From: Balaenoptera acutorostrata
Taxonomy: Eukaryota; Chordata; Mammalia; Artiodactyla; Balaenopteridae
Length of the DNA stretch: 64,000 nucleotides
Direction: 5' to 3'
Assembly: GCF_949987535.1 (NCBI RefSeq)
Contig: NC_080064.1
Coordinates: 126,446,708-126,510,707 of the forward strand
The position numbers and the translations under genes are program-made. Shown here piece after piece: positions 1 through 64,000 of the stretch. The notes beneath the pieces are model-generated. The model was not told where the DNA came from, did no database searches, and saw only the letters and a program-made list of their open reading frames with translations. How positions within the stretch are numbered: position 1 is the stretch's first letter; every line of letters begins with the position of its first letter.

Positions 1-177
1 TAATGGTTGCTTCATAGTCACAAGGATTGCAGGGCTCTAAATGACACCTGCCCTCAAGAAATGCCCTGGAGTGGGGAATAGGCAAGAAAATTCAACACAT
101 GAGAAATTTTTCAAGAAGTCAATATGAAGAGGGAAGTTGTACTCACTCTTTATCAAAAAAAGGAAAAGAAAAAAAAG

Positions 178-1068
178 GACATGCTTAAAGCTCAGTATAA
201 GGAATTATTAGCCACATGCAAATTCAAATTCAAAAAGGTTTCAGCTCACACCAGTCATGACCATCAGCAAAAAGACTACAAACTATAAATGCTTAAGGGG
301 TTTGAGAAAAATGTGTACCTTCTAGCTGCTCGTGGGATGTAAAGTGGTAACAGCACTAACGAAAACTGAATGGAGCTGCTACAAAGGTAAAAATTGAGCT
401 ACCATATGATGCGGCAGGGCACCTTTTGGGCCTATAACCTAAGACCACCAGAATCGGAAAGACAGAGGCAGGCAAATGTGAACTGCAACAACATTGATAT
501 AGCCAAGACATGGAAGCAAAAAAAAGGTCCATAAACAGATGAATGGACAAAGACAAAGTGGTATACGTACCAAATGGAATAGAAGCCTCGGGAACAAAAT
601 GAACAATGCCGTTTTCAGGACTACAGTTGAGCCTAGAAATAATCATATAAGGTTAAGTAAGTCAAAAGGGTATGACAAATATCCTATGATATCATTTATA
701 CATGTTATCCTAAGATTGCTACCAATGAACATATTTCCACAAAAAAAGACACTCACAGACTTATCAAATAAACTAATGGTTAGCCAAACTGAAAGGTGGG
801 AGGATGGGTAAATTAGGACTATGGCGTTTACATACATATACTAATGTATGTTAAATGTATGTAAACATATAACAGATAAACTATATGAATTATATAATCA
901 CCAATACCTTTAAAATATATATTGTGTAATCACATACATGCTAACAGGATCCGAAGATGAACAGACATATGTATGAATCATTGAGCAGATTCTGTACAGC
1001 CAGACAATGAAAACACTCTAATCAAATTTACTCCGATAAGAAATAGAAATTAAATTTAAAAAACAAAC
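178..1068 (+). mobile_element. LINE-1 3' end (ORF2 C-terminus, 3' UTR, tail), monomer A
   Basis: This stretch follows the last part of a mammalian LINE-1 in the sense direction. In order I recognise the end of the ORF2 region (tcagctcacaccagtca near 240, ccatcagcaaaaag near 261, gagctaccatatgatg near 396, gccaagacatggaagc near 503, aacagatgaatggac near 534), its C-terminal end (aagtaagtca near 655, atgatatcattta near 686), and the 3' UTR (ctcacagact near 753, aggtgggaggatgggtaaatta near 794, gattctgtacagcc near 988). It ends in a short A-rich tail at about 1060. The ORF2 part is full of frameshifts and stops and cannot code. A translated remnant of the ORF2 C-terminus is still visible as KYPMISFIHV. 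The same segment sits at the same offset (177 to 1067) in every A monomer. Confidence 0.9.
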
Positions 1069-1158
1069 AGAAGTAAGGAGACATAAACTTCTCGGGGCTT
1101 CTCCCAGCACATTCCACTCTAACTCACAACCTCGGAACACTACCTAGAGGAAGACTCT

Positions 1159-1172
1159 GTTGCCCTAGTAAC
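1159..1172. promoter_or_regulatory. Candidate RFX X-box, one per monomer
   Basis: The sequence gttgccctagtaac fits the 14-bp RFX-family consensus GTTRCCNNRGYAAC at every defined position. It begins 83 bases before each monomer end. In the 47 complete monomers the starts are 1159, 2725, 3963, 5205, 6771, 8009, 9251, 10816, 12054, 13296, 14861, 16099, 17664, 18902, 20144, 21710, 22948, 24513, 25751, 26993, 28559, 29797, 31039, 32605, 33843, 35085, 36651, 37889, 39131, 40697, 41935, 43177, 44743, 45981, 47223, 48789, 50027, 51269, 52514, 54079, 55317, 56559, 57803, 59369, 60607, 61849 and 63415. The motif match is visible; binding is not shown. Confidence 0.5.
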
Positions 1173-1194
1173 AAGAGTTGAGAACGTAATAATG

Positions 1195-1208
1195 CTGCCG
1201 CCTTGTGG
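1195..1208 (-). promoter_or_regulatory. CTCF-like motif, one per monomer
   Basis: The minus strand reads ccacaaggcggcag, which agrees with the classical CTCF core CCGCGNGGNGGCAG except at the third and fifth bases. It begins 36 bp after the start of the X-box in each monomer. Type C monomers have TG in place of the central CG (for example 3999-4012), and the first B copy has a different base at about 2765. It may be a chance resemblance. Confidence 0.3.
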
Positions 1209-1395
1209 CTGTTTCCCACAACAGCAGCTTTATACCCAGTGCCTATTGTTGCTTAATAGTCACAAGGACTGCAGGGCACTAAATGACACCTGCCTTCAAA
1301 AAAGGCCCTGGGGTAGGGAATAGGCAAGAAAATTCAACACATGAGAAATTTTTCAGGAAGTCAATATGAAGAGGGAAGTTGTACTCACTCTTTAA

Positions 1396-1420
1396 CAAAA
1401 AAAGGAAAAGAAGAAAAAGG
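1396..1420 (+). repeat. Purine-rich A/G tract at the L1 5' junction
   Basis: Each monomer has a stretch of A and G of about 25 bases at the join between the non-L1 segment and the L1 fragment. In type A it lies at 154-179, in type B here and in type C at 2959-2985. The sequence differs by type (type B has gaagaaaaagggg). It could reflect the truncation point of the L1 copy or a mononucleotide-type expansion. Confidence 0.55.
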
Positions 1421-1922
1421 GGATGCCTAAAGCTCAGTGTAAGGAATTATTAGCCACATGCCTATCCAACCTCCAAAAAGGTTTCAGCTCACACAGGTCA
1501 AATGGCCATCAGCAAAAAGTCCACAAACTATAAATGCAGAAGGGGTTTTAGAGAACTCTGTACCTCCTAGCTCTGGTGGGATCTAAAGTGGTAACAGCAC
1601 TAACAAAAACGGAATGGAGCTGCTTTACAAGGTAAAAACTGAGCTACCATATGATGCGACAGGGCACCTTTTGAGCCTATTAACTAAGACCACCAGAATC
1701 GGAAAGACAGAGGCAGGCAAATGTGCACTGCAGCAATATTGAAATAGCCAAGACATGGAAGCAAAAAAAAGGTCCATAAACAGATGAATGGACAAAGACG
1801 AAGTGGTATACGTACCAAATGGAATAGAAGCCTCGGGAACAAAATGAACAATGCCGTTTTCAGGACTACAGTTGAGCCTAGAAATAATCATATAAGGTTA
1901 AGTAAGTCAAAAGGGTATGACA
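1420..1922 (+). mobile_element. LINE-1 3' fragment, monomer B, part before the SINE
   Basis: This is the same L1 segment as in monomer A, covering the ORF2 3' part up to the SINE insertion point. Type B markers are gcgacagg near 1657, gagcctattaac near 1673 and gtgcactgcagcaat near 1719. It includes the upstream 14-bp target-site copy at 1909-1922. Confidence 0.9.
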
Positions 1923-2229
1923 GGGGCTTCCCTGGTGGCGCAGTGATAGAGAATCTGCCTGCTAATGCAGGGGACGCGGGTTCGAGCCCTGGTCTGGGAG
2001 GATCCCACGTGCCACAGAGCAACTGGGACCGTGAGCCACAACTGCTGAGCCTGCGCATCTGGAGCCTGTGCCCCGCAACGGAAGGGGCCACGATAGTGAG
2101 AGGCCCGCGCACCGCAATGAAGAGTGGCCCCCGCTTGCCGCAACTAGAGAAAGCCCTCGCACGAAACGAAGACCCAACACAGCTAAATAAATAGATAAAT
2201 AAATAAATAAAGTAGCTATTAATTAAAAA
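1923..2229 (+). mobile_element. CHR-type tRNA-derived SINE, unit 1 copy
   Basis: A full-length SINE lies inside the L1 part of monomer B. It starts at ggggcttccctggtgg. Its RNA polymerase III boxes are visible: A box tggcgcagtg at 1936-1945 and B box ggttcgagcc at 1979-1988. A long tRNA-unrelated body follows, then an AAATAAAT-type tail and an A-run. It is flanked by direct repeats aaaagggtatgaca at 1909-1922 and 2230-2243, and monomers A and C show the empty site. It resembles CHR-2 elements of cetaceans. It has 18 CpGs in about 257 bp, far denser than its surroundings. Both strands are open for long distances, but that is chance reading through a SINE. Confidence 0.88.
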
Positions 2230-2634
2230 AAAAGGGTATGACAAATATCCTATGATATCATTTATACATGTTATCCTAAGATTGCTACCAATGAACATAT
2301 TTCCACAAAAAAAGACACTCACAGACTTATCAAATAAACTAATGGTTAGCCAAAATGAAAGGTGGGAGGATGGGTAAATTAGGACTATGGTGTTTACATA
2401 CATATACTAATGTATGTTAAATGTATATAAACATATAACAGAAAAACTATATGAATTATATAATCACCAATACCTTTAAAATATATATTGTGTAATCACA
2501 TACATGCTAACAGGATCCGAAGATGAACAGACATATGTATGAATCATTGAGCAGATTCTGTACAGCCAGACAATCAAAACACTCTAATCAAATTTACTCC
2601 GATAAGAAATAGAAATTAAATTGAAAAAACAAAC
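2230..2634 (+). mobile_element. LINE-1 3' fragment, monomer B, part after the SINE
   Basis: This is the continuation of the L1 copy after the SINE: the second target-site copy at 2230-2243, the end of ORF2, the 3' UTR and the A-rich tail near 2620-2634. Type B markers are atggtgtttac near 2387, gtatataaacat near 2425 and cagaaaaact near 2439. Confidence 0.9.
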
Positions 2635-2983: not shown

Positions 2984-3872
2984 GACATGCCTAAAGCTCA
3001 GTATAAGGAATTATTAGCCATAGGCAAATTCAAATTCAAAAAGGTTTCAGCTCACACCAGTCATGACCATCAGCAAAAAGTCTACAAACTATAAATGCTG
3101 AAGGGGTTTTAGAGAACTGTGTACCTTCTAGCTGCTGGTGGGATGTAAAGTGGTAACAGCACTAACGCAAACTGAATCGAGCTGCTTTACAAGGTAAAAC
3201 CTGAGCTACCATATGATGCGGCAGGGCACCTTTTGGGCCTATAACCTAAGACCACCAGAATCGGAAAGACAGAGGCAGGCAAATGTGCACTGCAGCAATA
3301 TTGAAATAGCCAAGAAATGGAAGCAAAAAAAGATCCATAAACAGATGAATGGACAAAAAGAAGAGGTATATGGACAGCATGGAATAGTAGCCTCGGAAAA
3401 AAAATAAACAATGCCGTGTTCAGGACTACAGTTGAGCCTAGAAATAATCATATAAGGTTAAGTAAGTCAAAAAGGTATGACAAATATCCTATGATATCAT
3501 TTATACATGTTATCCTAAGATTGCTACCAATGAACATATTTCCACAAAAAAAGACACTCACAGACTTATCAAATAAACTAATTGTTAGCCGAAATGAAAG
3601 GTGGGAGGATGGGTAAATTAGGACTATGGGGTTAACATACATATAGTAATGTTTGTTAAATGTATATAAACAAAAAACATACAAACTATATAAATTATAT
3701 AATCACAATACCTTTAAAATATACATTCTGTAATTCCATACATGCTAACATGATCCGAAGAGGAACAGACATATGTGTGAATCATTGAGTAGATTCTGTA
3801 CAGCCAGACAATCAAAACACTCTAATCAAATTTACTCCGATAAGAAATAGAAATTAAATTTAAAAAACAAAC
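2984..3872 (+). mobile_element. LINE-1 3' end, monomer C
   Basis: The same L1 segment appears in the third monomer type. Type C markers are aagaaatggaagc near 3312, gaggtatatggacagc near 3363, atggggttaac near 3626, caaaaaacatac near 3670 and cgaagaggaac near 3755. A monomer without a SINE at this site has cgaaat or caaaat at about 3590 depending on the copy. No coding capacity remains. Confidence 0.9.
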
Positions 3873-4046
3873 ATAAGTAAGGAGACATAAAGTTCTGGGG
3901 GCTTGTCCCAGCACATTCCACTCTAGTTTACAACCTCGGAACACTACCTCCAGGAAGACTCTGTTGCCCTAGTAACAAGAATTGAGAATGTAATAATGCT
4001 GCTGCCTTGTGGCTGTTTCCCACAACAGCAGCTTTAAACACACTGC

Positions 4047-7000
4047 TAATGGTTGCTTCATAGTCACAAGGATTGCAGGGCTCTAAATGACACCTGCCCT
4101 CAAGAAATGCCCTGGAGTGGGGAATAGGCAAGAAAATTCAACACATGAGAAATTTTTCAAGAAGTCAATATGAAGAGGGAAGTTGTACTCACTCTTTATC
4201 AAAAAAAGGAAAAGAAAAAAAAGGACATGCTTAAAGTTCAGTATAAGGAATTATTAGCCACATGCAAATTCAAATTCAAAAAGGTTTCAGCTCACACCAG
4301 TCATGACCATCAGCAAAAAGACTACAAACTATAAATGCTTAAGGGGTTTGAGAAAAATGTGTACCTTCTAGCTGCTCGTGGGATGTAAAGTGGTAACAGC
4401 ACTAACGAAAACTGAATGGAGCTGCTACAAAGGTAAAAATTGAGCTACCATATGATGCGGCAGGGCACCTTTTGGGCCTATAACCTAAGACCACCAGAAT
4501 CGGAAAGACAGAGGCAGGCAAATGTGAACTGCAACAACATTGATATAGCCAAGACATGGAAGCAAAAAAAAGGTCCATAAACAGATGAATGGACAAAGAC
4601 GAAGTGGTATACGTACCAAATGGAATAGAAGCCTCGGGAACAAAATGAACAATGCCGTTTTCAGGACTACAGTTGAGCCTAGAAATAATCATATAAGGTT
4701 AAGTAAGTCAAAAGGGTATGACAAATATCCTATGATATCATTTATACATGTTATCCTAAGATTGCTACCAATGAACATATTTCCACAAAAAAAGACACTC
4801 ACAGACTTATCAAATAAACTAATGGTTAGCCAAACTGAAAGGTGGGAGGATGGGTAAATTAGGACTATGGCGTTTACATACATATACTAATGTATGTTAA
4901 ACGTATGTAAACATATAACAGATAAACTATATGAATTATATAATCACCAATACCTTTAAAATATATATTGTGTAATCACATACATGCTAACAGGATCCGA
5001 AGATGAACAGACATATGTATGAATCATTGAGCAGATTCTGTACAGCCAGACAATGAAAACACTCTAATCAAATTTACTCCGATAAGAAATAGAAATTAAA
5101 TTTAAAAAACAAACAGAAGTAAGGAGACATAAACTTCTCGGGGCTTCTCCCAGCACATTCCACTCTAACTCACAACCTCGGAACACTACCTAGAGGAAGA
5201 CTCTGTTGCCCTAGTAACAAGAGTTGAGAACGTAATAATGCTGCCGCCTTGTGGCTGTTTCCCACAACAGCAGCTTTATACCCAGTGCCTATTGTTGCTT
5301 AATAGTCACAAGGACTGCAGGGCACTAAATGACACCTGCCTTCAAAAAAGGCCCTGGGGTAGGGAATAGGCAAGAAAATTCAACACATGAGAAATTTTTC
5401 AGGAAGTCAATATGAAGAGGGAAGTTGTACTCACTCTTTAACAAAAAAAGGAAAAGAAGAAAAAGGGGATGCCTAAAGCTCAGTGTAAGGAATTATTAGC
5501 CACATGCCTATCCAACCTCCAAAAAGGTTTCAGCTCACACAGGTCAAATGGCCATCAGCAAAAAGTCCACAAACTATAAATGCAGAAGGGGTTTTAGAGA
5601 ACTCTGTACCTCCTAGCTCTGGTGGGATCTAAAGTGGTAACAGCACTAACAAAAACGGAATGGAGCTGCTTTACAAGGTAAAAACTGAGCTACCATATGA
5701 TGCGACAGGGCACCTTTTGAGCCTATTAACTAAGACCACCAGAATCGGAAAGACAGAGGCAGGCAAATGTGCACTGCAGCAATATTGAAATAGCCAAGAC
5801 ATGGAAGCAAAAAAAAGGTCCATAAACAGATGAATGGACAAAGACGAAGTGGTATACGTACCAAATGGAATAGAAGCCTCGGGAACAAAATGAACAATGC
5901 CATTTTCAGGACTACAGTTGAGCCTAGAAATAATCATATAAGGTTAAGTAAGTCAAAAGGGTATGACAGGGGCTTCCCTGGTGGCGCAGTGATAGAGAAT
6001 CTGCCTGCTAATGCAGGGGACGCGGGTTCGAGCCCTGGTCTGGGAGGATCCCACGTGCCACAGAGCAACTGGGACCGTGAGCCACAACTGCTGAGCCTGC
6101 GCATCTGGAGCCTGTGCCCCGCAACGGAAGGGGCCACGATAGTGAGAGGCCCGCGCACCGCAATGAAGAGTGGCCCCCGCTTGCCGCAACTAGAGAAAGC
6201 CCTCGCACGAAACGAAGATCCAACACAGCTAAATAAATAGATAAATAAATAAATAAAGTAGCTATTAATTAAAAAAAAAGGGTATGACAAATATCCTATG
6301 ATATCATTTATACATGTTATCCTAAGATTGCTACCAATGAACATATTTCCACAAAAAAAGACACTCACAGACTTATCAAATAAACTAATGGTTAGCCAAA
6401 ATGAAAGGTCGGAGGATGGGTAAATTAGGACTATGGTGTTTACATACATATACTAATGTATGTTAAATGTATATAAACATATAACAGAAAAACTATATGA
6501 ATTATATAATCACCAATACCTTTAAAATATATATTGTGTAATCACATACATGCTAACAGGATCCGAAGATGAACAGACATATGTATGAATCATTGAGCAG
6601 ATTCTGTACAGCCAGACAATCAAAACACTCTAATCAAATTTACTCCGATAAGAAATAGAAATTAAATTGAAAAAACAAACAGAAGTAAGGAGACATGAAG
6701 TTCTGGGGGCTTGTCCCAGCACATTCCACTCTAGTTTACAACCTCGGAACACTACCTCCAGGAAGACTCTGTTGCCCTAGTAACAAGAGTTGAGAACGTA
6801 ATAATGCTGCCGCCTTGTGGCTGTTTCCCACAACAGCAGCTTTATACCCAGTGCCAATTGTTGCTTAATAGTCACAAGGACTGCAGGGCTCTAAATGACA
6901 CCTGCCCTCAAAAAATGCCCTGCGGTAGGGAATAGGCAAGAAAATTCAAGACATGAGAAAATTTTCAAGAAGTCAATAAGAGGAAGGAAGTTGTACTCAC

Positions 7001-8092
7001 GCTTTAAAAAAAAGGAAAAGAAAAAAAAGGACATGCCTAAAGCTCAGTATAAGGAATTATTAGCCATAGGCAAATTCAAATTCAAAAAGGTTTCAGCTCA
7101 CACCAGTCATGACCATCAGCAAAAAGTCTACAAACTATAAATGCTGAAGGGGTTTTAGAGAACTGTGTACCTTCTAGCTGCTGGTGGGATGTAAAGTGGT
7201 AACAGCACTAACGCAAACTGAATCGAGCTGCTTTACAAGGTAAAACCTGAGCTACCATATGATGCGGCAGGGCACCTTTTGGGCCTATAACCTAAGACCA
7301 CCAGAATCGGAAAGACAGAGGCAGGCAAATGTGCACTGCAGCAATATTGAAATAGCCAAGAAATGGAAGCAAAAAAAGATCCATAAACAGATGAATGGAC
7401 AAAAAGAAGAGGTATATGGACAGCATGGAATAGTAGCCTCGGAAAAAAAATAAACAATGCCGTGTTCAGGACTACAGTTGAGCCTAGAAATAATCATATA
7501 AGGTTAAGTAAGTCAAAAAGGTATGACAAATATCCTATGATATCATTTATACATGTTATCCTAAGATTGCTACCAATGAACATATTTCCACAAAAAAAGA
7601 CACTCACAGACTTATCAAATAAACTAATTGTTAGCCAAAATGAAAGGTGGGAGGATGGGTAAATTAGGACTATGGGGTTAACATACATATAGTAATGTTT
7701 GTTAAATGTATATAAACAAAAAACATACAAACTATATAAATTATATAATCACAATACCTTTAAAATATACATTCTGTAATTCCATACATGCTAACATGAT
7801 CCGAAGAGGAACAGACATATGTGTGAATCATTGAGTAGATTCTGTACAGCCAGACAATCAAAACACTCTAATCAAATTTACTCCGATAAGAAATAGAAAT
7901 TAAATTTAAAAAACAAACATAAGTAAGGAGACATGAAGTTCTGGGGGCTTGTCCCAGCACATTCCACTCTAGTTTACAACCTCGGAACACTACCTCCAGG
8001 AAGACTCTGTTGCCCTAGTAACAAGAGTTGAGAATGTAATAATGCTGCTGCCTTGTGGCTGTTTCCCACAACAGCAGCTTTAAACACACTGC
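4047..8092 (+). repeat. HOR unit 2, regular A-B-C
   Basis: Monomer A is 4047-5288, B is 5289-6854 and C is 6855-8092. Private changes are agttcag near 4236 in A, aacgtatg near 4900 in A, a CpG-to-CpA change at 5901-5902 in B and agatcc near 6216 in the SINE. B carries ggtcgg near 6408, a marker shared with the B copies of units 3, 4 and the second B of unit 5. Confidence 0.96.
5969..6275 (+). mobile_element. CHR-type SINE, unit 2 copy
   Basis: Same insertion and target-site duplication as at 1923. Own change: agatcc near 6216. Confidence 0.87.
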
Positions 8093-14365: not shown

Positions 14366-14944
14366 AAAAGGGTATGACAAATATCCTATGATATCATTTA
14401 TACATGTTATCCTAAGATTGCTACCAATGAACATATTTCCACAAAAAAAGACACTCACAGACTTATCAAATAAACTAATGGTTAGCCAAAATGAAAGGTC
14501 GGAGGATGGGTAAATTAGGACTATGGTGTTTACATACATATACTAATGTATGTGAAATGTATATAAACATATAACAGAAAAACTATATGAATTATATAAT
14601 CACCAATACCTTTAAAATATATATTGTGTAATCACATACATGCTAACAGGATCCGAAGATGAACAGACATATGTATGAATCATTGAGCAGGTTCTGTACA
14701 GCCAGACAATCAAAACACTCTAATCAAATTTACTCCGATAAGAAATAGAAATTAAATTGAAAAAACAAACAGAAGTAAGGAGACATGAAGTTCTGGGGGA
14801 TTGTCCCAGCACATTCCACTCTAGTTTACAACCTCAGAACACTACCTCCAGGAAGACTCTGTTGCCCTAGTAACAAGAGTTGAGAACGTAATAATGCTGC
14901 CGCCTTGTGGCTGTTTCCCACAACAGCAGCTTTATACCCAGTGC

Positions 14945-16182
14945 CAATTGTTGCTTAATAGTCACAAGGACTGCAGGGCTCTAAATGACACCTGCCCTCA
15001 AAAAATGCCCTGCGGTAGGGAATAGGCAAGAAAATTCAAGACATGAGAAAATTTTCAAGAAGTCAATAAGAGGAAGGAAGTTGTACTCTCGCTTTAAAAA
15101 AAAGGAAAAGAAAAAAAAGGACATGCCTAAAGCTCAGTATAAGGAATTATTAGCCATAGGCAAATTCAAATTCAAAAAGGTTTCAGCTCACACCAGTCAT
15201 GACCATCAGCAAAAAGTCTACAAACTATAAATGCTGAAGGGGTTTTAGAGAACTGTGTACCTTCTAGCTGCTGGTGGGATGTAAAGTGGTAACAGCACTA
15301 ACGCAAACTGAATCGAGCTGCTTTACAAGGTAAAACCTGAGCTACCATATGATGCGGCAGGGCACCTTTTGGGCCTATAACCTAAGACCACCAGAATCGG
15401 AAAGACAGAGGCAGGCAAATGTGCACTGCAGCAATATTGAAATAGCCAAGAAATGGAAGCAAAAAAAGATCCATAAACAGATGAATGGACAAAAAGAAGA
15501 GGTATATGGACAGCATGGAATAGTAGCCTCGGAAAAAAAATAAACAATGCCGTGTTCAGGACTACAGTTGAGCCTAGAAATAATCATATAAGGTTAAGTA
15601 AGTCAAAAAGGTATGACAAATATCCTATGATATCATTTATACATGTTATCCTAAGATTGCTACCAATGAACATATTTCCACAAAAAAAGACACTCACAGA
15701 CTTATCAAATAAACTAATTGTTAGCCGAAATGAAAGGTGGGAGGATGGGTAAATTAGGACTATGGCGTTTACATACATATACTAATGTATGTTAAATGTA
15801 TGTAAACATATAACAGATAAACTATATAAATTATATAATCACAATACCTTTAAAATATACATTCTGTAATTCCATACATGCTAACATGATCCGAAGATGA
15901 ACAGACATATGTATGAATCATTGAGCAGATTCTGTACAGCCAGACAATGAAAACACTCTAATCAAATTTACTCCGATAAGAAATAGAAATTAAATTTAAA
16001 AAACAAACAGAAGTAAGGAGACATAAACTTCTCGGGGCTTCTCCCAGCACATTCCACTCTAACTCACAACCTCGGAACACTACCTAGAGGAAGACTCTGT
16101 TGCCCTAGTAACAAGAGTTGAGAACGTAATAATGCTGCCGCCTTGTGGCTGTTTCCCACAACAGCAGCTTTATACCCAGTGC
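14945..16182 (+). repeat. Mosaic monomer X (C/A recombinant), first copy
   Basis: Type C up to about 15727 (cgaaat). It is type A at 15766-15820 (gcgtttac, gtatgtaaac, cagataaac), type C again at 15828-15890 (tataaatt, cacaatacc, aacatgatcc) and type A from 15898 to the end (gatgaac, aatgaaaac, acttctcgg). A B monomer follows. The pattern C-A-C-A implies a crossover together with a patch of gene conversion or mismatch repair. Confidence 0.92.
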
Positions 16183-16861
16183 CTATTGTTGCTTAATAGT
16201 CACAAGGACTGCAGGGCACTAAATGACACCTGCCTTCAAAAAGGCCCTGGGGTAGGGAATAGGCAAGAAAATTCAACACATGAGAAATTTTTCAGGAAGC
16301 CAATATGAAGAGGGAAGTTGTACTCACTCTTTAACAAAAAAAGGAAAAGAAGAAAAAGGGGATGCCTAAAGCTCAGTGTAAGGAATTATTAGCCACATGC
16401 CTATCCAACCTCCAAAAAGGTTTCAGCTCACACAGGTCAAATGGCCATCAGCAAAAAGTCCACAAACTATAAATGCAGAAGGGGTTTTAGAGAACTCTGT
16501 ACCTCCTAGCTCTGGTGGGATCTAAAGTGGTAACAGCACTAACAAAAACGGAATGGAGCTGCTTTACAAGGTAAAAACTGAGCTACCATATGATGCGACA
16601 GGGCACCTTTTGAGCCTATTAACTAAGACCACCAGAATCGGAAAGACAGAGGCAGGCAAATGTGCACTGCAGAAATATTGAAATAGCCAAGACATGGAAG
16701 CAAAAAAAAGGTCCATAAACAGATGAATGGACAAAGACGAAGTGGTATACGTACCAAATGGAATAGAAGCCTCGGGAACAAAATGAACAATGCCGTTTTC
16801 AGGACTACATTTGAGCCTAGAAATAATCATATAAGGTTAAGTAAGTCAAAAGGGTATGACA

Positions 16862-17168
16862 GGGGCTTCCCTGGTGGCGCAGTGATAGAGAATCTGCCTG
16901 CTAATGCAGGGGACGCGGGTTCGAGCCCTGGTCTGGGAGGATCCCACGTGCCACAGAGCAACTGGGACCGTGAGCCACAACTGCTGAGCCTGCGCATCTG
17001 GAGCCTGTGCCCCGCAACGGAAGGGGCCACGATAGTGAGAGGCCCGCGCACCGCAATGAAGAGTGGCCCCCGCTTACCGCAACTAGAGAAAGCCCTCGCA
17101 CGAAACGAAGACCCAACACAGCTAAATAAATAGATAAATAAATAAATAAAGTAGCTATTAATTAAAAA
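16862..17168 (+). mobile_element. CHR-type SINE, unit 4 second copy
   Basis: Only 2803 bp after the previous copy instead of 4046, because one monomer is missing between them. Same variants as the copy at 14059. Confidence 0.87.
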
Positions 17169-20100
17169 AAAAGGGTATGACAAATATCCTATGATATCAT
17201 TTATACATGTTATCCTAAGATTGCTACCAATGAACATATTTCCACAAAAAAAGACACTCACAGACTTATCAAATAAACTAATGGTTAGCCAAAATGAAAG
17301 GTCGGAGGATGGGTAAATTAGGACTATGGTGTTTACATACATATACTAATGTATGTGAAATGTATATAAACATATAACAGAAAAACTATATGAATTATAT
17401 AATCACCAATACCTTTAAAATATATATTGTGTAATCACATACATGCTAACAGGATCCGAAGATGAACAGACATATGTATGAATCATTGAGCAGGTTCTGT
17501 ACAGCCAGACAATCAAAACACTCTAATCAAATTTACTCCGATAAGAAATAGAAATTAAATTGAAAAAACAAACAGAAGTAAGGAGACATGAAGTTCTGGG
17601 GGCTTGTCCCAGCACATTCCACTCTAGTTTACAACCTCAGAACACTACCTCCAGGAAGACTCTGTTGCCCTAGTAACAAGAGTTGAGAACGTAATAATGC
17701 TGCCGCCTTGTGGCTGTTTCCCACAACAGCAGCTTTATACCCAGTGCCAATTGTTGCTTAATAGTCACAAGGACTGCAGGGCTCTAAATGACACCTGCCC
17801 TCAAAAAATGCCCTGCGGTAGGGAATAGGCAAGAAAATTCAAGACATGAGAAAATTTTCAAGAAGTCAATAAGAGGAAGGAAGTTGTACTCACGCTTTAA
17901 AAAAAAGGAAAAGAAAAAAAAGGACATGCCTAAAGCTCAGTATAAGGAATTATTAGCCATAGGCAAATTCAAATTCAAAAAGGTTTCAGCTCACACCAGT
18001 CATGACCATCAGCAAAAAGTCTACAAACTATAAATGCTGAAGGGGTTTTAGAGAACTGTGTACCTTCTAGCTGCTGGTGGGATGTAAAGTGGTAACAGCA
18101 CTAACGCAAACTGAATCGAGCTGCTTTACAAGGTAAAACCTGAGCTACCATATGATGCGGCAGGGCACCTTTTGGGCCTATAACCTAAGACCACCAGAAT
18201 CGGAAAGACAGAGGCAGGCAAATGTGCACTGCAGCAATATTGAAATAGCCAAGAAATGGAAGCAAAAAAAGATCCATAAACAGATGAATGGACAAAAAGA
18301 AGAGGTATATGGACAGCATGGAATAGTAGCCTCGGAAAAAAAATAAACAATGCCGTGTTCAGGACTACAGTTGAGCCTAGAAATAATCATATAAGGTTAA
18401 GTAAGTCAAAAAGGTATGACAAATATCCTATGATATCATTTATACATGTTATCCTAAGATTGCTACCAATGAACATATTTCCACAAAAAAAGACACTCAC
18501 AGACTTATCAAATAAACTAATTGTTAGCCGAAATGAAAGGTGGGAGGATGGGTAAATTAGGACTATGGGGTTAACATACATATAGTAATGTTTGTTAAAT
18601 GTATATAAACAAAAAACATACAAACTATATAAATTATATAATCACAATACCTTTAAAATATACATTCTGTAATTCCATACATGCTAACATGATCCGAAGA
18701 GGAACAGACATATGTGTGAATCATTGAGTAGATTCTGTACAGCCAGACAATCAAAACACTCTAATCAAATTTACTCTGATAAGAAATAGAAATTAAATTT
18801 AAAAAACAAACATAAGTAAGGAGACATGAAGTTCTGGGGGCTTGTCCCAGCACATTCCACTCTAGTTTACAACCTCGGAACACTACCTCCAGGAAGACTC
18901 TGTTGCCCTAGTAACAAGAGTTGAGAATGTAATAATGCTGCTGCCTTGTGGCTGTTTCCCACAACAGCAGCTTTAAACACACTGCTAATGGTTGCTTCAT
19001 AGTCACAAGGATTGCAGGGCTCTAAATGACACCTGCCCTCAAGAAATGCCCTGGAGTGGGGAACAGGCAAGAAAATTCAACACATGAGAAATTTTTCAAG
19101 AAGTCAATATGAAGAGGGAAGTTGTACTCACTCTTTATCAAAAAAAGGAAAAGAAAAAAAAGGACATGCTTAAAGCTCAGTATAAGGAATTATTAGCCAC
19201 ATGCAAATTCAAATTCAAAAAGTTTTCAGCTCACACCAGTCATGACCATCAGCAAAAAGACTACAAACTATAAATGCTTAAGGGGTTTGAGAAAAATGTG
19301 TACCTTCTAGCTGCTCGTGGGATGTAAAGTGGTAACAGCACTAACGAAAACTGAATGGAGCTGCTACAAAGGTAAAAATTGAGCTACCATATGATGCGGC
19401 AGGGCACCTTTTGGGCCTATAACCTAAGACCACCAGAATCGGAAAGACAGAGGCAGGCAAATGTGAACTGCAACAACATTGATATAGCCAAGACATGGAA
19501 GCAAAAAAAAGGTCCATAAACAGATGAATGGACAAAGACGAAGTGGTATACGTACCAAATGGAATAGAAGCCTCGGGGACAAAATGAACAATGCCGTTTT
19601 CAGGACTACAGTTGAGCCTAGAAATAATCATATAAGGTTAAGTAAGTCAAAAGGGTATGACAAATATCCTATGATATCATTTATACATGTTATCCTAAGA
19701 TTGCTACCAATGAACATATTTCCACAAAAAAAGACACTCACAGACTTATCAAATAAACTAATGGTTAGCCAAAATGAAAGGTGGGAGGATGGGTAAATTA
19801 GGACTATGGCGTTTACATACATATACTAATGTATGTTAAATGTATGTAAACATATAACAGATAAACTATATGAATTATATAATCACCAATACCTTTAAAA
19901 TATATATTGTGTAATCACATACATGCTAACAGGATCCGAAGATGAACAGACATATGTATGAATCATTGAGCAGATTCTGTACAGCCAGACAATGAAAACA
20001 CTCTAATCAAATTTACTCCGATAAGAAATAGAAATTAAATTTAAAAAACAAACAGAAGTAAGGAGACATAAACTTCTCGGGGCTTCTCCCAGCACATTCC

Positions 20101-20907
20101 ACTCTAACTCACAACCTCGGAACACTACCTAGAGGAAGACTCTGTTGCCCTAGTAACAAGAGTTGAGAACGTAATAATGCTGCCGCCTTGTGGCTGTTTC
20201 CCACAACAGCAGCTTTATACCCAGTGCCTATTGTTGCTTAATAGTCACAAGGACTGCAGGGCACTAAATGACACCTGCCTTCAAAAAAGGCCCTGGGGTA
20301 GGGAATAGGCAAGAAAATTCAACACATGAGAAAATTTTCAGGAAGTCAATATGAAGAGGGAAGTTGTACTCACTCTTTAACAAAAAAAGGAAAAGAAGAA
20401 AAAGGGGATGCCTAAAGCTCAGTGTAAGGAATTATTAGCCACATGCCTATCCAACCTCCAAAAAGGTTTCAGCTCACACAGGTCAAATGGCCATCAGCAA
20501 AAAGTCCACAAACTATAAATGCAGAAGGGGTTTTAGAGAACTCTGTACCTCCTAGCTCTGGTGGGATCTAAAGTGGTAACAGCACTAACAAAAACGGAAT
20601 GGAGCTGCTTTACAAGGTAAAAACTGAGCTACCATATGATGCGACAGGGCACCTTTTGAGCCTATTAACTAAGACCACCAGAATCGGAAAGACAGAGGCA
20701 GGCAAATGTGCACTGCAGCAATATTGAAATAGCCAAGACATGGAAGCAAAAAAAAGGTCCATAAACAGATGAATGGACAAAGACGAAGTGGTATACGTAC
20801 CAAATGGAATAGAAGCCTCGGGAACAAAATGAACAATGCCGTTTTCAGGACTACAGTTGAGCCTAGAAATAATCATATAAGGTTAAGTAAGTCAAAAGGG
20901 TATGACA

Positions 20908-50110: not shown

Positions 50111-51352
50111 TAATGGTTGCTTCATAGTCACAAGGATTGCAGGGCTCTAAATGACACCTGCCCTCAAGAAATGCCCTGGAGTGGGGAATAGGCAAGAAAA
50201 TTCAACACATGAGAAATTTTTCAAGAAGTCAATATGAAGAGGAAAGTTGTACTCACTCTTTATCAAAAAAAGGAAAAGAAAAAAAAGGACATGCTTAAAG
50301 CTCAGTATAAGGAATTATTAGCCACATGCAAATTCAAATTCAAAAAGGTTTCAGCTCACACCAGTCATGACCATCAGCAAAAAGACTACAAACTATAAAT
50401 GCTTAAGGGGTTTGAGAAAAATGTGTACCTTCTAGCTGCTCGTGGGATGTAAAGTGGTAACAGCACTAACGAAAACTGAATGGAGCTGCTACAAAGGTAA
50501 AAATTGAGCTACCATATGATGCGGCAGGGCACCTTTTGGGCCTATAACCTAAGACCACCAGAATCGGAAAGACAGAGGCAGGCAAATGTGAACTGCAACA
50601 ACATTGATATAGCCAAGACATGGAAGCAAAAAAAAGGTCCATAAACAGATGAATGGACAAAGACGAAGTGGTATACGTACCAAATGGAATAGAAGCCTCG
50701 GGAACAAAATGAACAATGCCGTTTTCAGGACTACAGTTGAGCCTAGAAATAATCATATAAGGTTAAGTCAGTCAAAAGGGTATGACAAATATCCTATGAT
50801 ATCATTTATACATGTTATCCTAAGATTGCTACCAATGAACATATTTCCACAAAAAAAGACACTCACAGACTTATCAAATAAACTAATGGTTAGCCAAACT
50901 GAAAGGTGGGAGGATGGGTAAATTAGGACTATGGCGTTTACATACATATACTAATGTATGTTAAATGTATGTAAACATATAACAGATAAACTATATGAAT
51001 TATATAATCACCAATACCTTTAAAATATATATTGTGTAATCACATACATGCTAACAGGATCCGAAGATGAACAGACATATGTATGAATCATTGAGCAGAT
51101 TCTGTACAGCCAGACAATGAAAACACTCTAATCAAATTTACTCCGATAAGAAATAGAAATTAAATTTAAAAAACAAACAGAAGTAAGGAGACATAAACTT
51201 CTCGGGGCTTCTCCCAGCACATTCCACTCTAACTCACAACCTCGGAACACTACCTAGAGGAAGACTCTGTTGCCCTAGTAACAAGAGTTGAGAACGTAAT
51301 AATGCTGCCGCCTTGTGGCTGTTTCCCACAACAGCAGCTTTATACCCAGTGC

Positions 51353-52597
51353 CTATTGTTGCTTAATAGTCACAAGGACTGCAGGGCACTAAATGACACC
51401 TGCCTTCAAAAAAGGCCCTGGGGTAGGGAATAGGCAAGAAAATTCAACACATGAGAAATTTTTCAGGAAGTCAATATGAAGAGGGAAGTTGTACTCACTC
51501 TTTAACAAAAAAAGGAAAAGAAGAAAAAGGGGATGCCTAAAGCTCAGTGTAAGGAATTATTAGCCACATGCCTATCCAACCTCCAAAAAGGTTTCAGCTC
51601 ACACAGGTCAAATGGCCATCAGCAAAAAGTCCACAAACTATAAATGCAGAAGGGGTTTTAGAGAACTCTGTACCTCCTAGCTCTGGTGGGATCTAAAGTG
51701 GTAACAGCACTAACAAAAACGGAATGGAGCTGCTTTACAAGGTAAAAACTGAGCTACCATATGATGCGACAGGGCACCTTTTGAGCCTATTAACTAAGAC
51801 CACCAGAATCGGAAAGACAGAGGCAGGCAAATGTGCACTGCAGCAATATTGAAATAGCCAAGACATGGAAGCAAAAAAAAGGTCCATAAACAGATGAATG
51901 GACAAAGACGAAGTGGTATACGTACCAAATGGAATAGAAGCCTCGGGAACAAAATGAACAATGCCGTTTTCAGGACTACAGTTGAGCCTAGAAATAATCA
52001 TATAAGGTTAAGTAAGTCAAAAGGGTATGACAAATATCCTATGATATCATTTATACATGTTATCCTAAGATTGCTACCAATGAACATATTTCCACAAAAA
52101 AAGACACTCACAGACTTATCAAATAAACTAATGGTTAGCCAAACTGAAAGGTGGGAGGATGGGTAAATTAGGACTATGGCGTTTACATACATATACTAAT
52201 GTATGTTAAATGTATGTAAACATATAACAGATAAACTATATGAATTATATAATCACCAATACCTTTAAAATATATATTGTGTAATCACATACATGCTAAC
52301 AGGATCCGAAGATGAACAGACATATGTATGAATCATTGAGCAGATTCTGTACAGCCAGACAATGAAAACACTCTAATCAAATTTACTCCGATAAGAAATA
52401 GAAATTAAATTTAAAAAACAAACAGAAGTAAGGAGACATAAACTTCTCGGGGCTTCTCCCAGCACATTCCACTCTAACTCACAACCTCGGAACACTACCT
52501 AGAGGAAGACTCTGTTGCCCTAGTAACAAGAGTTGAGAACGTAATAATGCTGCCGCCTTGTGGCTGTTTCCCACAACAGCAGCTTTATACCCAGTGC
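51353..52597 (+). repeat. Hybrid monomer Y (B start, A end, no SINE), first copy
   Basis: The first part has type B markers (gcgacagg near 51767, gagcctattaac near 51783, gtgcactgcagcaat near 51829). The SINE site is empty at about 52030, and the rest has type A markers (caaactgaaag near 52139, atggcgtttac near 52176, cagataaac near 52228). The switch lies in the interval where A and B are identical, about 51860-52140. At 1245 bp it equals a B monomer minus the SINE and one target-site copy. Confidence 0.9.
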
Positions 52598-53583: not shown

Positions 53584-56500
53584 AAAAGGGTATGACAAAT
53601 ATCCTATGATATCATTTATACATGTTATCCTAAGATTGCTACCAATGAACATATTTCCACAAAAAAAGACACTCACAGACTTATCAAATAAACTAATGGT
53701 TAGCCAAAATGAAAGGTGGGAGGATGGGTAAATTAGGACTATGGTGTTTACATACATATACTAATGTATGTTAAATGTATATAAACATATAACAGAAAAA
53801 CTATATGAATTATATAATCACCAATACCTTTAAAATATATATTGTGTAATCACATACATGCTAACAGGATCCGAAGATGAACAGACATATGTATGAATCA
53901 TTGAGCAGATTCTGTACAGCCAGACAATCAAAACACTCTAATCAAATTTACTCCGATAAGAAATAGAAATTAAATTGAAAAAACAAACAGAAGTAAGGAG
54001 ACATGAAGTTCTGGGGGCTTGTCCCAGCACATTCCACTCTAGTTTACAACCTCGGAACACTACCTCCAGGAAGACTCTGTTGCCCTAGTAACAAGAGTTG
54101 AGAACGTAATAATGCTGCCGCCTTGTGGCTGTTTCCCACAACAGCAGCTTTATACCCAGTGCCAATTGTTGCTTAATAGTCACAAGGACTGCAGGGCTCT
54201 AAATGACACCTGCCCTCAAAAAATGCCCTGCGGTAGGGAATAGGCAAGAAAATTCAAGACATGAGAAAATTTTCAAGAAGTCAATAAGAGGAAGGAAGTT
54301 GTACTCACGCTTTAAAAAAAAGGAAAAGAAAAAAAAGGACATGCCTAAAGCTCAGTATAAGGAATTATTAGCCATAGGCAAATTCAAATTCAAAAAGGTT
54401 TCAGCTCACACCAGTCATGACCATCAGCAAAAAGTCTACAAACTATAAATGCTGAAGGGGTTTTAGAGAACTGTGTACCTTCTAGCTGCTGGTGGGATGT
54501 AAAGTGGTAACAGCACTAACGCAAACTGAATCGAGCTGCTTTACAAGGTAAAACCTGAGCTACCATATGATGCGGCAGGGCACCTTTTGGGCCTATAACC
54601 TAAGACCACCAGAATCGGAAAGACAGAGGCAGGCAAATGTGCACTGCAGCAATATTGAAATAGCCAAGAAATGGAAGCAAAAAAAGATCCATAAACAGAT
54701 GAATGGACAAAAAGAAGAGGTATATGGACAGCATGGAATAGTAGCCTCGGAAAAAAAATAAACAATGCCGTGTTCAGGACTACAGTTGAGCCTAGAAATA
54801 ATCATATAAGGTTAAGTAAGTCAAAAAGGTATGACAAATATCCTATGATATCATTTATACATGTTATCCTAAGATTGCTACCAATGAACATATTTCCACA
54901 AAAAAAGACACTCACAGACTTATCAAATAAACTAATTGTTAGCCGAAATGAAAGGTGGGAGGATGGGTAAATTAGGACTATGGGGTTAACATACATATAG
55001 TAATGTTTGTTAAATGTATATAAACAAAAAACATACAAACTATATAAATTATATAATCACAATACCTTTAAAATATACATTCTGTAATTCCATACATGCT
55101 AACATGATCCGAAGAGGAACAGACATATGTGTGAATCATTGAGTAGATTCTGTACAGCCAGACAATCAAAACACTCTAATCAAATTTACTCCGATAAGAA
55201 ATAGAAATTAAATTTAAAAAACAAACATAAGTAAGGAGACATAAAGTTCTGGGGGCTTGTCCCAGCACATTCCACTCTAGTTTACAACCTCGGAACACTA
55301 CCTCCAGGAAGACTCTGTTGCCCTAGTAACAAGAATTGAGAATGTAATAATGCTGCTGCCTTGTGGCTGTTTCCCACAACAGCAGCTTTAAACACACTGC
55401 TAATGGTTGCTTCATAGTCACAAGGATTGCAGGGCTCTAAATGACACCTGCCCTCAAGAAATGCCCTGGAGTGGGGAATAGGCAAGAAAATTCAACACAT
55501 GAGAAATTTTTCAAGAAGTCAATATGAAGAGGGAAGTTGTACTCACTCTTTATCAAAAAAAGGAAAAGAAAAAAAAGGACATGCTTAAAGCTCAGTATAA
55601 GGAATTATTAGCCACATGCAAATTCAAATTCAAAAAGGTTTCAGCTCACACCAGTCATGACCATCAGCAAAAAGACTACAAACTATAAATGCTTAAGGGG
55701 TTTGAGAAAAATGTGTACCTTCTAGCTGCTCGTGGGATGTAAAGTGGTAACAGCACTAACGAAAACTGAATGGAGCTGCTACAAAGGTAAAAATTGAGCT
55801 ACCATATGATGCGGCAGGGCACCTTTTGGGCCTATAACCTAAGACCACCAGAATCGGAAAGACAGAGGCAGGCAAATGTGAACTGCAACAACATTGATAT
55901 AGCCAAGACATGGAAGCAAAAAAAAGGTCCATAAACAGATGAATGGACAAAGACGAAGTGGTATATGTACCAAATGGAATAGAAGCCTCGGGAACAAAAT
56001 GAACAATGCCGTTTTCAGGACTACAGTTGAGCCTAGAAATAATCATATAAGGTTAAGTAAGTCAAAAGGGTATGACAAATATCCTATGATATCATTTATA
56101 CATGTTATCCTAAGATTGCTACCAATGAACATATTTCCACAAAAAAAGACACTCACAGACTTATCAAATAAACTAATGGTTAGCCAAAATGAAAGGTGGG
56201 AGGATGGGTAAATTAGGACTATGGCGTTTACATACATATACTAATGTATGTTAAATGTATGTAAACATATAACAGATAAACTATATGAATTATATAATCA
56301 CCAATACCTTTAAAATATATATTGTGTAATCACATACATGCTAACAGGATCCGAAGATGAACAGACATATGTATGAATCATTGAGCAGATTCTGTACAGC
56401 CAGACAATGAAAACACTCTAATCAAATTTACTCCGATAAGAAATAGAAATTAAATTTAAAAAACAAACAGAAGTAAGGAGACATAAACTTCTCGGGGCTT

Positions 56501-56642
56501 CTCCCAGCACATTCCACTCTAACTCACAACCTCGGAACACTACCTAGAGGAAGACTCTGTTGCCCTAGTAACAAGAGTTGAGAACGTAATAATGCTGCCG
56601 CCTTGTGGCTGTTTCCCACAACAGCAGCTTTATACCCAGTGC

Positions 56643-57886
56643 CTATTGTTGCTTAATAGTCACAAGGACTGCAGGGCACTAAATGACACCTGCCTTCAAA
56701 AAAGGCCCTGGGGTAGGGAATAGGCAAGAAAATTCAACACATGAGAAATTTTTCAGGAAGTCAATATGAAGAGGGAAGTTGTACTCACTCTTTAACAAAA
56801 AAAGGAAAAGAAGAAAAAGGGGATGCCTAAAGCTCAGTGTAAGGAATTATTAGCCACATGCCTATCCAACCTCCAAAAAGGTTTCAGCTCACACAGGTCA
56901 AATGGCCATCAGCAAAAAGTCCACAAACTATAAATGCAGAAGGGGTTTTAGAGAACTCTGTACCTCCTAGCTCTGGTGGGATCTAAAGTGGTAACAGCAC
57001 TAACAAAAACGGAATGGAGCTGCTTTACAAGGTAAAAACTGAGCTACCATATGATGCGACAGGGCACCTTTTGAGCCTATTAACTAAGACCACCAGAATC
57101 GGAAAGACAGAGGCAGGCAAATGTGCACTGCAGCAATATTGAAATAGCCAAGACATGGAAGCAAAAAAAAGGTCCATAAACAGATGAATGGACAAAGACG
57201 AAGTGGTATACGTACCGAATGGAATAGAAGCCTCGGGAACAAAATGAACAATGCCGTTTTCAGGACTACAGTTGAGCCTAGAAATAATCATATAAGGTTA
57301 AGTAAGTCAAAAGGGTATGACAAATATCCTATGATATCATTTATACATGTTATCCTAAGATTGCTACCAATGAACATATTTCCACAAAAAAAGACACTCA
57401 CAGACTTATCAAATAAACTAATGGTTAGCCAAAATGAAAGGTGGGAGGATGGGTAAATTAGACTATGGCGTTTACATACATATACTAATGTATGTTAAAT
57501 GTATGTAAACATATAACAGATAAACTATATGAATTATATAATCACCAATACCTTTAAAATATATATTGTGTAATCACATACATCCTAAGAGGATCCGAAG
57601 ATGAACAGACATATGTATGAATCATTGAGCAGATTCTGTACAGCCAGACAATGAAAACACTCTAATCAAATTTACTCCGATAAGAAATAGAAATTAAATT
57701 TAAAAAACAAACAGAAGTAAGGAGACATAAACTTCTCGGGGCTTCTCCCAGCACATTCCACTCTAACTCACAACCTCGGAACACTACCTAGAGGAAGACT
57801 CTGTTGCCCTAGTAACAAGAGTTGAGAACGTAATAATGCTGCCGCCTTGTGGCTGTTTCCCACAACAGCAGCTTTATACCCAGTGC
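56643..57886 (+). repeat. Hybrid monomer Y, second copy
   Basis: Same B-then-A structure and no SINE. Its A-type half has caaaatgaaag, matching the A monomer just before it (55401) and not the first Y copy. One G is missing near 57461. Confidence 0.9.
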
Positions 57887-60690: not shown

Positions 60691-63600
60691 TAATGGTTGC
60701 TTCATAGTCACAAGGATTGCAGGGCTCTAAATGACACCTGCCCTCAAGAAATGCCCTGGAGTGGGGAATAGGCAAGAAAATTCAACACATGAGAAATTTT
60801 TCAAGAAGTCAATATGAAGAGGGAAGTTGTACTCACTCTTTATCAAAAAAAGGAAAAGAAAAAAAAGGACATGCTTAAAGCTCAGTATAAGGAATTATTA
60901 GCCACATGCAAATTCAAATTCAAAAAGGTTTCAGCTCACACCAGTCATGACCATCAGCAAAAAGACTACAAACTATAAATGCTTAAGGGGTTTGAGAAAA
61001 ATGTGTACCTTCTAGCTGCTCGTGGGATGTAAAGTGGTAACAGCACTAACGAAAACTGAATGGAGCTGCTACAAAGGTAAAAATTGAGCTACCATATGAT
61101 GCGGCAGGGCACCTTTTGGGCCTATAACCTAAGACCACCAGAATCGGAAAGACAGAGGCAGGCAAATGTGCACTGCAACAACATTGATATAGCCAAGACA
61201 TGGAAGCAAAAAAAAGGTCCATAAACAGATGAATGGACAAAGACGAAGTGGTATACGTACCGAATGGAATAGAAGCCTCGGGAACAAAATGAACAATGCC
61301 GTTTTCAGGACTACAGTTGAGCCTAGAAATAATCATATAAGGTTAAGTAAGTCAAAAGGGTATGACAAATATCCTATGATATCATTTATACATGTTATCC
61401 TAAGATTGCTACCAATGAACATATTTCCACAAAAAAAGACACTCACAGACTTATCAAATAAACTAATGGTTAGCCAAACTGAAAGGTGGGAGGATGGGTA
61501 AATTAGGACTATGGCGTTTACATACATATACTAATGTATGTTAAATGTATGTAAACATATAACAGATAAACTATATGAATTATATAATCACCAATACCTT
61601 TAAAATATATATTGTGTAATCACATACATGCTAACAGGATCCGAAGATGAACAGACATATGTATGAATCATTGAGCAGATTCTGTACAGCCAGACAATGA
61701 AAACACTCTAATCAAATTTACTCCGATAAGAAATAGAAATTAAATTTAAAAAACAAACAGAAGTAAGGAGACATAAACTTCTCGGGGCTTCTCCCAGCAC
61801 ATTCCACTCTAACTCACAACCTCGGAACACTACCTAGAGGAAGACTCTGTTGCCCTAGTAACAAGAGTTGAGAACGTAATAATGCTGCCGCCTTGTGGCT
61901 GTTTCCCACAACAGCAGCTTTATACCCAGTGCCTATTGTTGCTTAATAGTCACAAGGACTGCAGGGCACTAAATGACACCTGCCTTCAAAAAAGGCCCTG
62001 GGGTAGGGAATAGGCAAGAAAATTCAACACATGAGAAATTTTTCAGGAAGTCAATATGAAGAGGGAAGTTGTACTCACTCTTTAACAAAAAAAGGAAAAG
62101 AAGAAAAAGGGGATGCCTAAAGCTCAGTGTAAGGAATTATTAGCCACATGCCTATCCAACCTCCAAAAAGGTTTCAGCTCACACAGGTCAAATGGCCATC
62201 AGCAAAAAGTCCACAAACTATAAATGCAGAAGGGGTTTTAGAGAACTCTGTACCTCCTAGCTCTGGTGGGATCTAAAGTGGTAACAGCACTAACAAAAAC
62301 GGAATGGAGCTGCTTTACAAGGTAAAAACTGAGCTACCATATGATGCGACAGGGCACCTTTTGAGCCTATTAACTAAGACCACCAGAATCGGAAAGACAG
62401 AGGCAGGCAAATGTGCACTGCAGCAATATTGAAATAGCCAAGACATGGAAGCAAAAAAAAGGTCCATAAACAGATGAATGGACAAAGACGAAGTGGTATA
62501 CGTACCAAATGGAATAGAAGCCTCGGGAACAAAATGAACAATGCCGTTTTCAGGACTACAGTTGAGCCTAGAAATAATCATATAAGGTTAAGTAAGTCAA
62601 AAGGGTATGACAGGGGCTTCCCTGGTGGCGCAGTGATAGAGAATCTGCCTGCTAATGCAGGGGACGCGGGTTCGAGCCCTGGTCTGGGAGGATCCCACGT
62701 GCCACAGAGCAACTGGGACCCTGAGCCACAACTGCTGAGCCTGCGCATCTGGAGCCTGTGCCCCGCAACGGAAGGGGCCACGATAGTGAGAGGCCCGCGC
62801 ACCGCAATGAAGAGTGGCCCCCGCTTGCCGCAACTAGAGAAAGCCCTCGCACGAAACGAAGACCCAACACAGCTAAATAAATAGATAAATAAATAAATAA
62901 AGTAGCTATTAATTAAAAAAAAAGGGTATGACAAATATCCTATGATATCATTTATACATGTTATCCTAAGATTGCTACCAATGAACATATTTCCACAAAA
63001 AAAGACACTCACAGACTTATCAAATAAACTAATGGTTAGCCAAAATGAAAGGTGGGAGGATGGGTAAATTAGGACTATGGTGTTTACATACATATACTAA
63101 TGTATGTTAAATGTATATAAACATATAACAGAAAAACTATATGAATTATATAATCACCAATACCTTTAAAATATATATTGTGTAATCACATACATGCTAA
63201 CAGGATCCGAAGATGAACAGACATATGTATGAATCATTGAGCAGATTCTGTACAGCCAGACAATCAAAACACTCTAATCAAATTTACTCCGATAAGAAAT
63301 AGAAATTAAATTGAAAAAACAAACAGAAGTAAGGAGACATGAAGTTCTGGGGGCTTGTCCCAGCACATTCCACTCTAGTTTACAACCTCGGAACACTACC
63401 TCCAGGAAGACTCTGTTGCCCTAGTAACAAGAGTTGAGAACGTAATAATGCTGCCGCCTTGTGGCTGTTTCCCACAACAGCAGCTTTATACCCAGTGCCA
63501 ATTGTTGCTTAATAGTCACAAGGACTGCAGGGCTCTAAATGACACCTGCCCTCAAAAAATGCCCTGCGGTAGGGAATAGGCAAGAAAATTCAAGACATGA

Positions 63601-64000
63601 GAAAATTTTCAAGAAGTCAATAAGAGGAAGGAAGTTGTACTCACGCTTTAAAAAAAAGGAAAAGAAAAAAAAGGACATGCCTAAAGCTCAGTATAAGGAA
63701 TTATTAGCCATAGGCAAATTCAAATTCAAAAAGGTTTCAGCTCACACCAGTCATGACCATCAGCAAAAAGTCTACAAACTATAAATGCTGAAGGGGTTTT
63801 AGAGAACTGTGTACCTTCTAGCTGCTGGTGGGATGTAAAGTGGTAACAGCACTAACGCAAACTGAATCGAGCTGCTTTACAAGGTAAAACCTGAGCTACC
63901 ATATGATGCGGCAGGGCACCTTTTGGGCCTATAACCTAAGACCACCAGAATCGGAAAGACAGAGGCAGGCAAATGTGCACTGCAGCAATATTGAAATAGC
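60691..64000 (+). repeat. HOR unit 14, A-B and start of C, cut by window end
   Basis: Monomer A is 60691-61932, B is 61933-63498 and C begins at 63499 and is cut after 502 bp. A has gtgcactgcaac near 61168, mixing a B/C-type base into an otherwise A-type stretch, and accgaatgg near 61258. The SINE has gaccctgag near 62717 instead of gaccgtgag. Confidence 0.95.
62613..62919 (+). mobile_element. CHR-type SINE, unit 14 copy
   Basis: Same insertion point. Own change: gaccctgag near 62717. Confidence 0.87.

Follow-up and report, generated by a model that had tools for sequence, protein, structure and literature searches.

A SINE-tagged trimeric array of a probable LINE-1-derived cetacean satellite in Balaenoptera acutorostrata

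We analyzed a stretch of 64,000 nucleotides from Balaenoptera acutorostrata (assembly GCF_949987535.1, contig NC_080064.1), referred to here as the window. It is very likely cetacean heterochromatic satellite DNA of a kind described in 1998, and its repeat unit would go back to a 5′-truncated LINE-1 (L1) and the DNA next to it. The monomers are usually ordered as a trimer of 4,046 bp in which one member carries a SINE, and four hybrid monomers mark places where this order changes.

Results

Satellite monomers fill the window and form a higher-order repeat

A BLAST search with the monomer at 2634-3875 tiled the window from base 2 to base 64,000 on the + strand, with gaps only at SINE inserts, and all 64,000 of the 64,000 bases were assigned to satellite monomers arranged head-to-tail. 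Cutting at the monomer start gave 48 monomers (1..64000, + strand) with lengths totaling 64,000 bases, of which 46 are complete and two are cut by the window ends; the only unrelated DNA is that of the SINE inserts. The first-pass annotation had described an L1 3′ end plus other sequence as the tandem unit, and 48 head-to-tail monomers that account for every base agree with this. Tandem Repeats Finder, at its period limit of 500, reported no repeat in the window.

Diagnostic sites sorted the monomers into 14 of type A (one truncated at the start of the window), 16 of type B, 14 of type C (one of these is cut by the window end and too short to be distinguished from C|A), two B|A hybrids and two C|A hybrids. 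Across the array, A and C monomers are 1,238-1,242 bp long and B monomers 1,565-1,566 bp. The usual order and period, seen at a lag of 4046, is a trimer of A (1,242 bp), B (1,566 bp) and C (1,238 bp), together 4,046 bp. One such unit, delimited by the lag, BLAST and diagnostic sites, lies at 3872..7917 (+ strand) and consists of A at 3872-5113, B at 5114-6679 and C at 6680-7917. Pairwise identity among single representatives of A, B and C was 93.1-94.0%, whereas C copies were 99.7-99.9% identical to a reference C (the two C|A hybrids, 98.6 and 98.9%). Because identity between units, as judged from the C copies, is far higher than identity within a unit, the array is a higher-order repeat.

Most of the monomer resembles the 3′ end of LINE-1

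In each monomer, roughly 325-345 bp of other DNA come first, and then about 890-915 bp that resemble a sense-strand L1 3′ end with the A-rich tail last. In the A monomer at 3872, nt 382-875 (4253..4746, + strand) correspond by tblastn and frameshift-tolerant alignment to a decayed C-terminal part of ORF2 with stops and frameshifts, and the following part, at about nt 876-1237 (4747..5108, + strand), aligned to a provisional L1 reference as 3′ UTR and A-rich tail.

When 120 listed database L1 ORF2 tails were compared by tblastn with four monomers, the best match reached 40.8 bits and 1,286 matches fell at E≤1, as opposed to 28.5 bits and 158 matches for 100 shuffled monomers. A frameshift-tolerant alignment, for which the query was the majority sequence of 109 of the 120 listed proteins, gave scores of 185 for A (73/168 residues identical), 154 for C (74/193) and 186 for a B|A hybrid (69/168). 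Sixty shuffles of the A monomer had a mean score of 33.2 and a maximum of 41; the shuffles used the bare monomer, and the aligned A, C and B|A monomers were each extended by their own first 300 nt. Since both kinds of score exceed those of the shuffles, nt 382-875 of the monomer is identified by similarity as decayed L1 ORF2 that reaches near the ORF2 end. Between them, the comparisons took in A, B, C and a B|A hybrid and demonstrate an ORF2-like end in each of these types, and the earlier claim of a sense L1 3′ end within the monomer was upheld.

A sequence search of the PDB with the monomer translation from window position 2976 on, with X at stops, returned, at E≤10, four chains among 177,635 distinct ones. 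Each is a version of the same protein, the LINE-1 ORF2 protein (best E 0.04, 17.3 bits), with alignments over residues 1106-1260, 1107-1261, 1629-1783 (in a longer chain) and 1108-1154. In a control, the non-L1 segment of a C monomer was translated in all six frames; the searches listed five chains, none of them L1 and the best a sialyltransferase at E 0.039 and 17.3 bits. As an unrelated protein reached this value, the E-value of 0.04 says little and only the choice of protein is informative. Pfam gave no match to two translations from the window, and a coding function of the monomer was dropped from consideration, the ORF2 frame being broken by stops and frameshifts.

The reference for the L1 3′ end was a provisional, hand-written version of the last 946 nt of L1, composed after the window had been read. 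Against this provisional sequence, identical positions numbered 651/880 (74.0%) in A, 628/851 (73.8%) in the B|A hybrid and 637/860 (74.1%) in C, with alignments that start at nt 324-346 of the monomer and end at nt 1233-1240. The L1 truncation point would thus lie at about nt 324-346, and the division into 890 bp of L1 and 350 bp of other DNA proposed in the first-pass annotation is about right for the three monomers aligned to this provisional reference. Its statement that L1 makes up 70% of every monomer applies to those three (72-74%) but not to the 16 of 48 monomers of type B, where the share is an estimated 57% or so with the SINE of 306-307 bp included. The 3′ UTR part alone, taken from the B|A hybrid at 51178 (nt 878-1245), scored 203 against the provisional reference, with a maximum of 78 among 300 shuffles. 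An L1 start some 100 bp further upstream found no support, as 28/300 shuffles of nt 230-382 from the same hybrid scored as high against the provisional 946 nt as that stretch alone.

The monomer resembles the LINE-1 3′ end in having the ORF2 C-terminus and, by the provisional reference, a probable 3′ UTR with A-rich tail in order and sense, and differs from it in its stops and frameshifts, its 5′ truncation and its tandem rather than dispersed arrangement. One scan of genome contigs with a 21-base pattern found no L1-like match, nor did one scan each of the plasmid and phage collections; in viral contigs the 21-base pattern and a protein scan, in which one stretch fitted the peptide pattern, gave no confirmed L1-like match.

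The non-L1 segment may derive from either flank of the founder

The segment without a detected L1 match covers nt 1-323 of the A monomer (3872..4194, + strand) and nt 1-345 of the other two aligned monomers, as delimited by the provisional reference and six-frame PDB searches. For nt 1-230 of the B|A hybrid at 51178, 183/300 shuffles aligned as well to the provisional 946-nt L1 piece. 3′ transduction is a known habit of L1, and the segment could have arisen by such read-through, or could be another mobile element or a different part of L1. It directly follows the A-rich tail of the preceding monomer, a further A-rich run immediately precedes the L1 start in the position expected of a second tail, and the DNA comparison covered only the last 946 nt of L1 in the provisional reference. 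Even so, we judge this unlikely. Six-frame PDB searches with one 345-bp copy (C monomer at 6680) listed no L1 protein at E≤10, which is a weak test for decayed sequence. In addition, a 66-residue ORF in the segment yielded three candidates and only two relatives in a search of 5.77 billion proteins; both come from single ENA contigs, so that database gives no sign of a dispersed family. One of the two is presumably an adapter chimera, judging from the peptide that an adapter would encode.

The best reading of the sequence is that the unit was founded by a 5′-truncated L1 and the DNA adjacent to it. That much of the first-pass annotation stands, but its assignment of the segment to the downstream flank goes beyond what the sequence can tell, because in a head-to-tail array the segment may stem from DNA on either side of the L1 founder, so that downstream flank, upstream flank and a fusion of the two where the duplication joined them all fit. 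At the unit borders of three monomers, with one choice of border, no target-site duplication left by the founder L1 was detected (87, 267 and 707 of 1,000 shuffles scored as high).

A SINE marks every B monomer

The first complete B monomer, defined by BLAST, diagnostic sites and monomer cutting, lies at 1068..2633 (+ strand) and contains a SINE insert at 1923..2229 (+ strand), which a duplication search found to be bounded by 14-bp duplications at 1909-1922 and 2230-2243. An insert of 306-307 bp with one identical, perfect 14-bp duplication is present in 16/16 B monomers, and the other monomer types are without it. This insert is probably a CHR-type tRNA-derived SINE of cetaceans. In the copy in 5114-6679 its head resembles a tRNA weakly: the tRNA model, aligned over its whole length, scored 20.6 bits, whereas its gathering score is 29. 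Compared with two Yangtze finless porpoise loci from Appendix A of PMC12427282, the SINE was 84.1% identical to STR19 over 195 nt (score 266) and 79.9% identical to STR10 over 199 nt (score 197); 200 shuffles scored at most 39 in each case. This similarity favors a cetacean source. Other Rfam matches in B (TCL6_1, mir-4012, mir-35_2 and NPPA-AS1_3) and a match to a bacterial leader model in C were far below their gathering scores and were set aside as chance. The identities of 84.1% and 79.9% to the porpoise loci and the perfect duplication are what a CHR-type SINE would present; unlike such an element, this copy has been amplified as a passenger of a satellite unit.

An ORF of the satellite has 73 relatives in the protein database, all from ENA, and the longest source contig given is 10,169 bases. 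Twelve of these carry the SINE at the same place, 51 fit a motif for the uninterrupted site, which is a crude criterion, none show both and 10 show neither, so both kinds of monomer occur outside this array. Among the relatives, P0194 keeps the reading frame of the ORF2 end at its C-terminus, as judged by eye, and in P0187 a satellite piece is joined to an ORF2-like piece.

Hybrid monomers coincide with gains and losses of a unit

Sites that are invariant across seven selected copies of each monomer type served to place the switch points in the hybrids. The B|A hybrid at 51178..52422 (+ strand) is of B type up to nt 676 and of A type from the SINE site at nt 841 on, and it lacks the SINE; a second one at 56468..57711 (+ strand) has the same switch interval and also lacks the SINE. 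The C|A hybrid at 14770..16007 (+ strand) is C-type to nt 950, continues with A-C-A patches and is directly followed by B, and the patchwork recurs in a second C|A hybrid at 21619..22856 (+ strand). The B|A hybrids at 51178 and 56468 are extra monomers in the trimer order, and at the C|A hybrids (14770 and 21619) an A monomer is missing. Misaligned exchange inside the array produces just such an extra B|A monomer and a C|A monomer with one monomer lost, and we therefore read the hybrids, which sit at the gains and losses of a unit in the trimer order, as footprints of unequal exchange.

The C|A hybrids each head one copy of a five-monomer block of 6,849 bp, which was recognized by a lag of 6849 and by pairwise differences and lies in two copies, 14770-21618 and 21619-28467 (14770..28467, + strand). 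Four of the five monomer pairs show no differences between the copies and the hybrid pair shows three. Monomer pairs with zero differences are found elsewhere in the array too, and for this reason the identity of the block monomers alone is no proof of duplication. Given the shared patchwork together with the block identity, the two C|A hybrids are probably one event that was copied. The two B|A hybrids, with one switch interval and five differences between them, may likewise be copies of one event. The four hybrids would then perhaps record two events rather than four.

Near-identical arrays are hard to assemble, and the hybrid monomers and length changes might accordingly be artifacts of the assembly. 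We regard this as decidedly unlikely, as the two hybrids of a pair are not identical (three differences in one pair, five in the other) and the C|A pair has an internal A-C-A patchwork and sits in a duplicated five-monomer block.

Centromeric satellites typically show higher-order repeats and hybrid monomers, and the presence of both here would fit a functional centromere whose units are under selection for building the kinetochore. The higher-order repeats of primate alpha satellite share with this array a unit of several monomers that are near-identical between units and diverged within them, as well as hybrids from unequal exchange; the monomer here is about seven times longer, is retrotransposon-derived and has no CENP-B box that we could find. 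At ≤1 mismatch the window contains no CENP-B boxes, where 2.07 are expected by chance, and a function in CENP-B binding was dropped, although such absence is compatible with a centromere. The centromere monomers predicted for the finless porpoise are 99-201 bp long, according to PMC11403816. All in all, selection for a centromere role seems very improbable. The array is instead most likely passive heterochromatin kept by unequal exchange, with its heterochromatic nature taken from the literature on cetacean satellites, and no function is needed because amplification by recombination explains it.

Discussion

An L1 origin of whale and dolphin satellites was reportedly set out by Kapitonov, Holmquist and Jurka in 1998 (MBE 15:611), and the common cetacean satellite itself is said to be the work of Arnason and co-workers. 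The first-pass annotation knew of no described cetartiodactyl satellite of this composition; that view has to be given up, as the published record has linked cetacean satellites to L1 since 1998. In PMC9659126, the common cetacean satellite is a tandem repeat with a kilobase-scale monomer like the 3′-terminal part of mammalian L1. The L1-origin satellite of 1998 also appears in tables of PMC8909793 and PMC6947457 (Table 1), the killer whale satellite component is 1,579 bp by its published title, and heterochromatin makes up as much as 25-30% of the genome in whales, as stated in PMC7763226.

Compared by description and by the length in that title, the array likely belongs to the same family as the common cetacean satellite. 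Both have a kilobase-scale tandem monomer resembling the L1 3′ end, and the B monomer at 1,565-1,566 bp is close to the 1,579 bp of the title. This array differs, by the published description, in its SINE-free A and C monomers (1,238-1,242 bp) and in its trimeric order. It could also be an L1-derived satellite born independently of the published one, from another L1 copy or flank. Its monomer lengths do differ from the published 1,579 bp, and a 4,046-bp trimer was not described among the literature matches listed and the passages from them. For one and the same end of an element to give rise to a satellite twice is less economical, however, and the SINE-bearing monomer is within 14 bp of the length in the title; we consider a separate birth rather unlikely.

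The following course can be proposed. Local tandem duplication of an L1 copy with its surroundings would have started the array, and its monomers would then have diverged by 6-7%. A SINE may subsequently have landed in the B lineage, after which amplification would have acted on the ABC trio as a whole. Block duplication, conversion patches and unequal exchange of arrays out of register would keep the copies near-identical while changing their number.

What is new here is at most the SINE-tagged trimer and the exchange hybrids. A trimer with SINE-free monomers was likewise absent among the literature matches listed and the passages from them. The array may represent an undescribed higher-order subfamily of the L1-derived cetacean satellite, in which a B monomer that postdates the SINE insertion and uninterrupted A and C monomers are locked into a 4-kb trimer, a proposal that we hold tentatively and at somewhat below an even chance. 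If it is true, the SINE would be a physical tag that directly displays unequal exchange, conversion patches and block duplication, and the turnover of a retrotransposon-born satellite would become datable and comparable between whale species. As the L1 origin was already known, what the array offers is a legible record of the copying of such DNA. Its B monomers, tagged by the SINE, and its hybrid monomers make misaligned recombination readable from one 64-kb stretch, and a comparison across cetaceans would date the replacement of the single monomer by the trimer as the unit of amplification.

Recombinant monomers and composition of the satellite

Two monomers that lack the SINE (51178-52422 and 56468-57711) are identified by diagnostic sites as B|A recombinants, that is, hybrids with a B-type beginning and an A-type end, and are therefore not necessarily ancestral B. 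At first glance, both resemble a B monomer prior to insertion. A larger duplication is evident at 14770-28467, which consists of two near-identical copies of a 6,849-bp block, each containing five monomers.

CpG observed/expected was 0.06 in the non-L1 segment of a single A monomer (3872-4216), where the dinucleotide is nearly absent, 0.44 in the L1 part of that monomer, and 0.75 in one copy of the SINE.

In a B monomer, a 148-codon open frame (5794-6240) starts within L1-derived sequence and extends into the SINE. Similarly fused frames are also found among database proteins, such as P0166. Among the relatives of the satellite ORF, P0194 retains the frame of the ORF2 end, as judged by eye, and P0187 combines a satellite piece and an L1 ORF2-like piece in one protein. 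P0194 may represent an older form of the satellite monomer.
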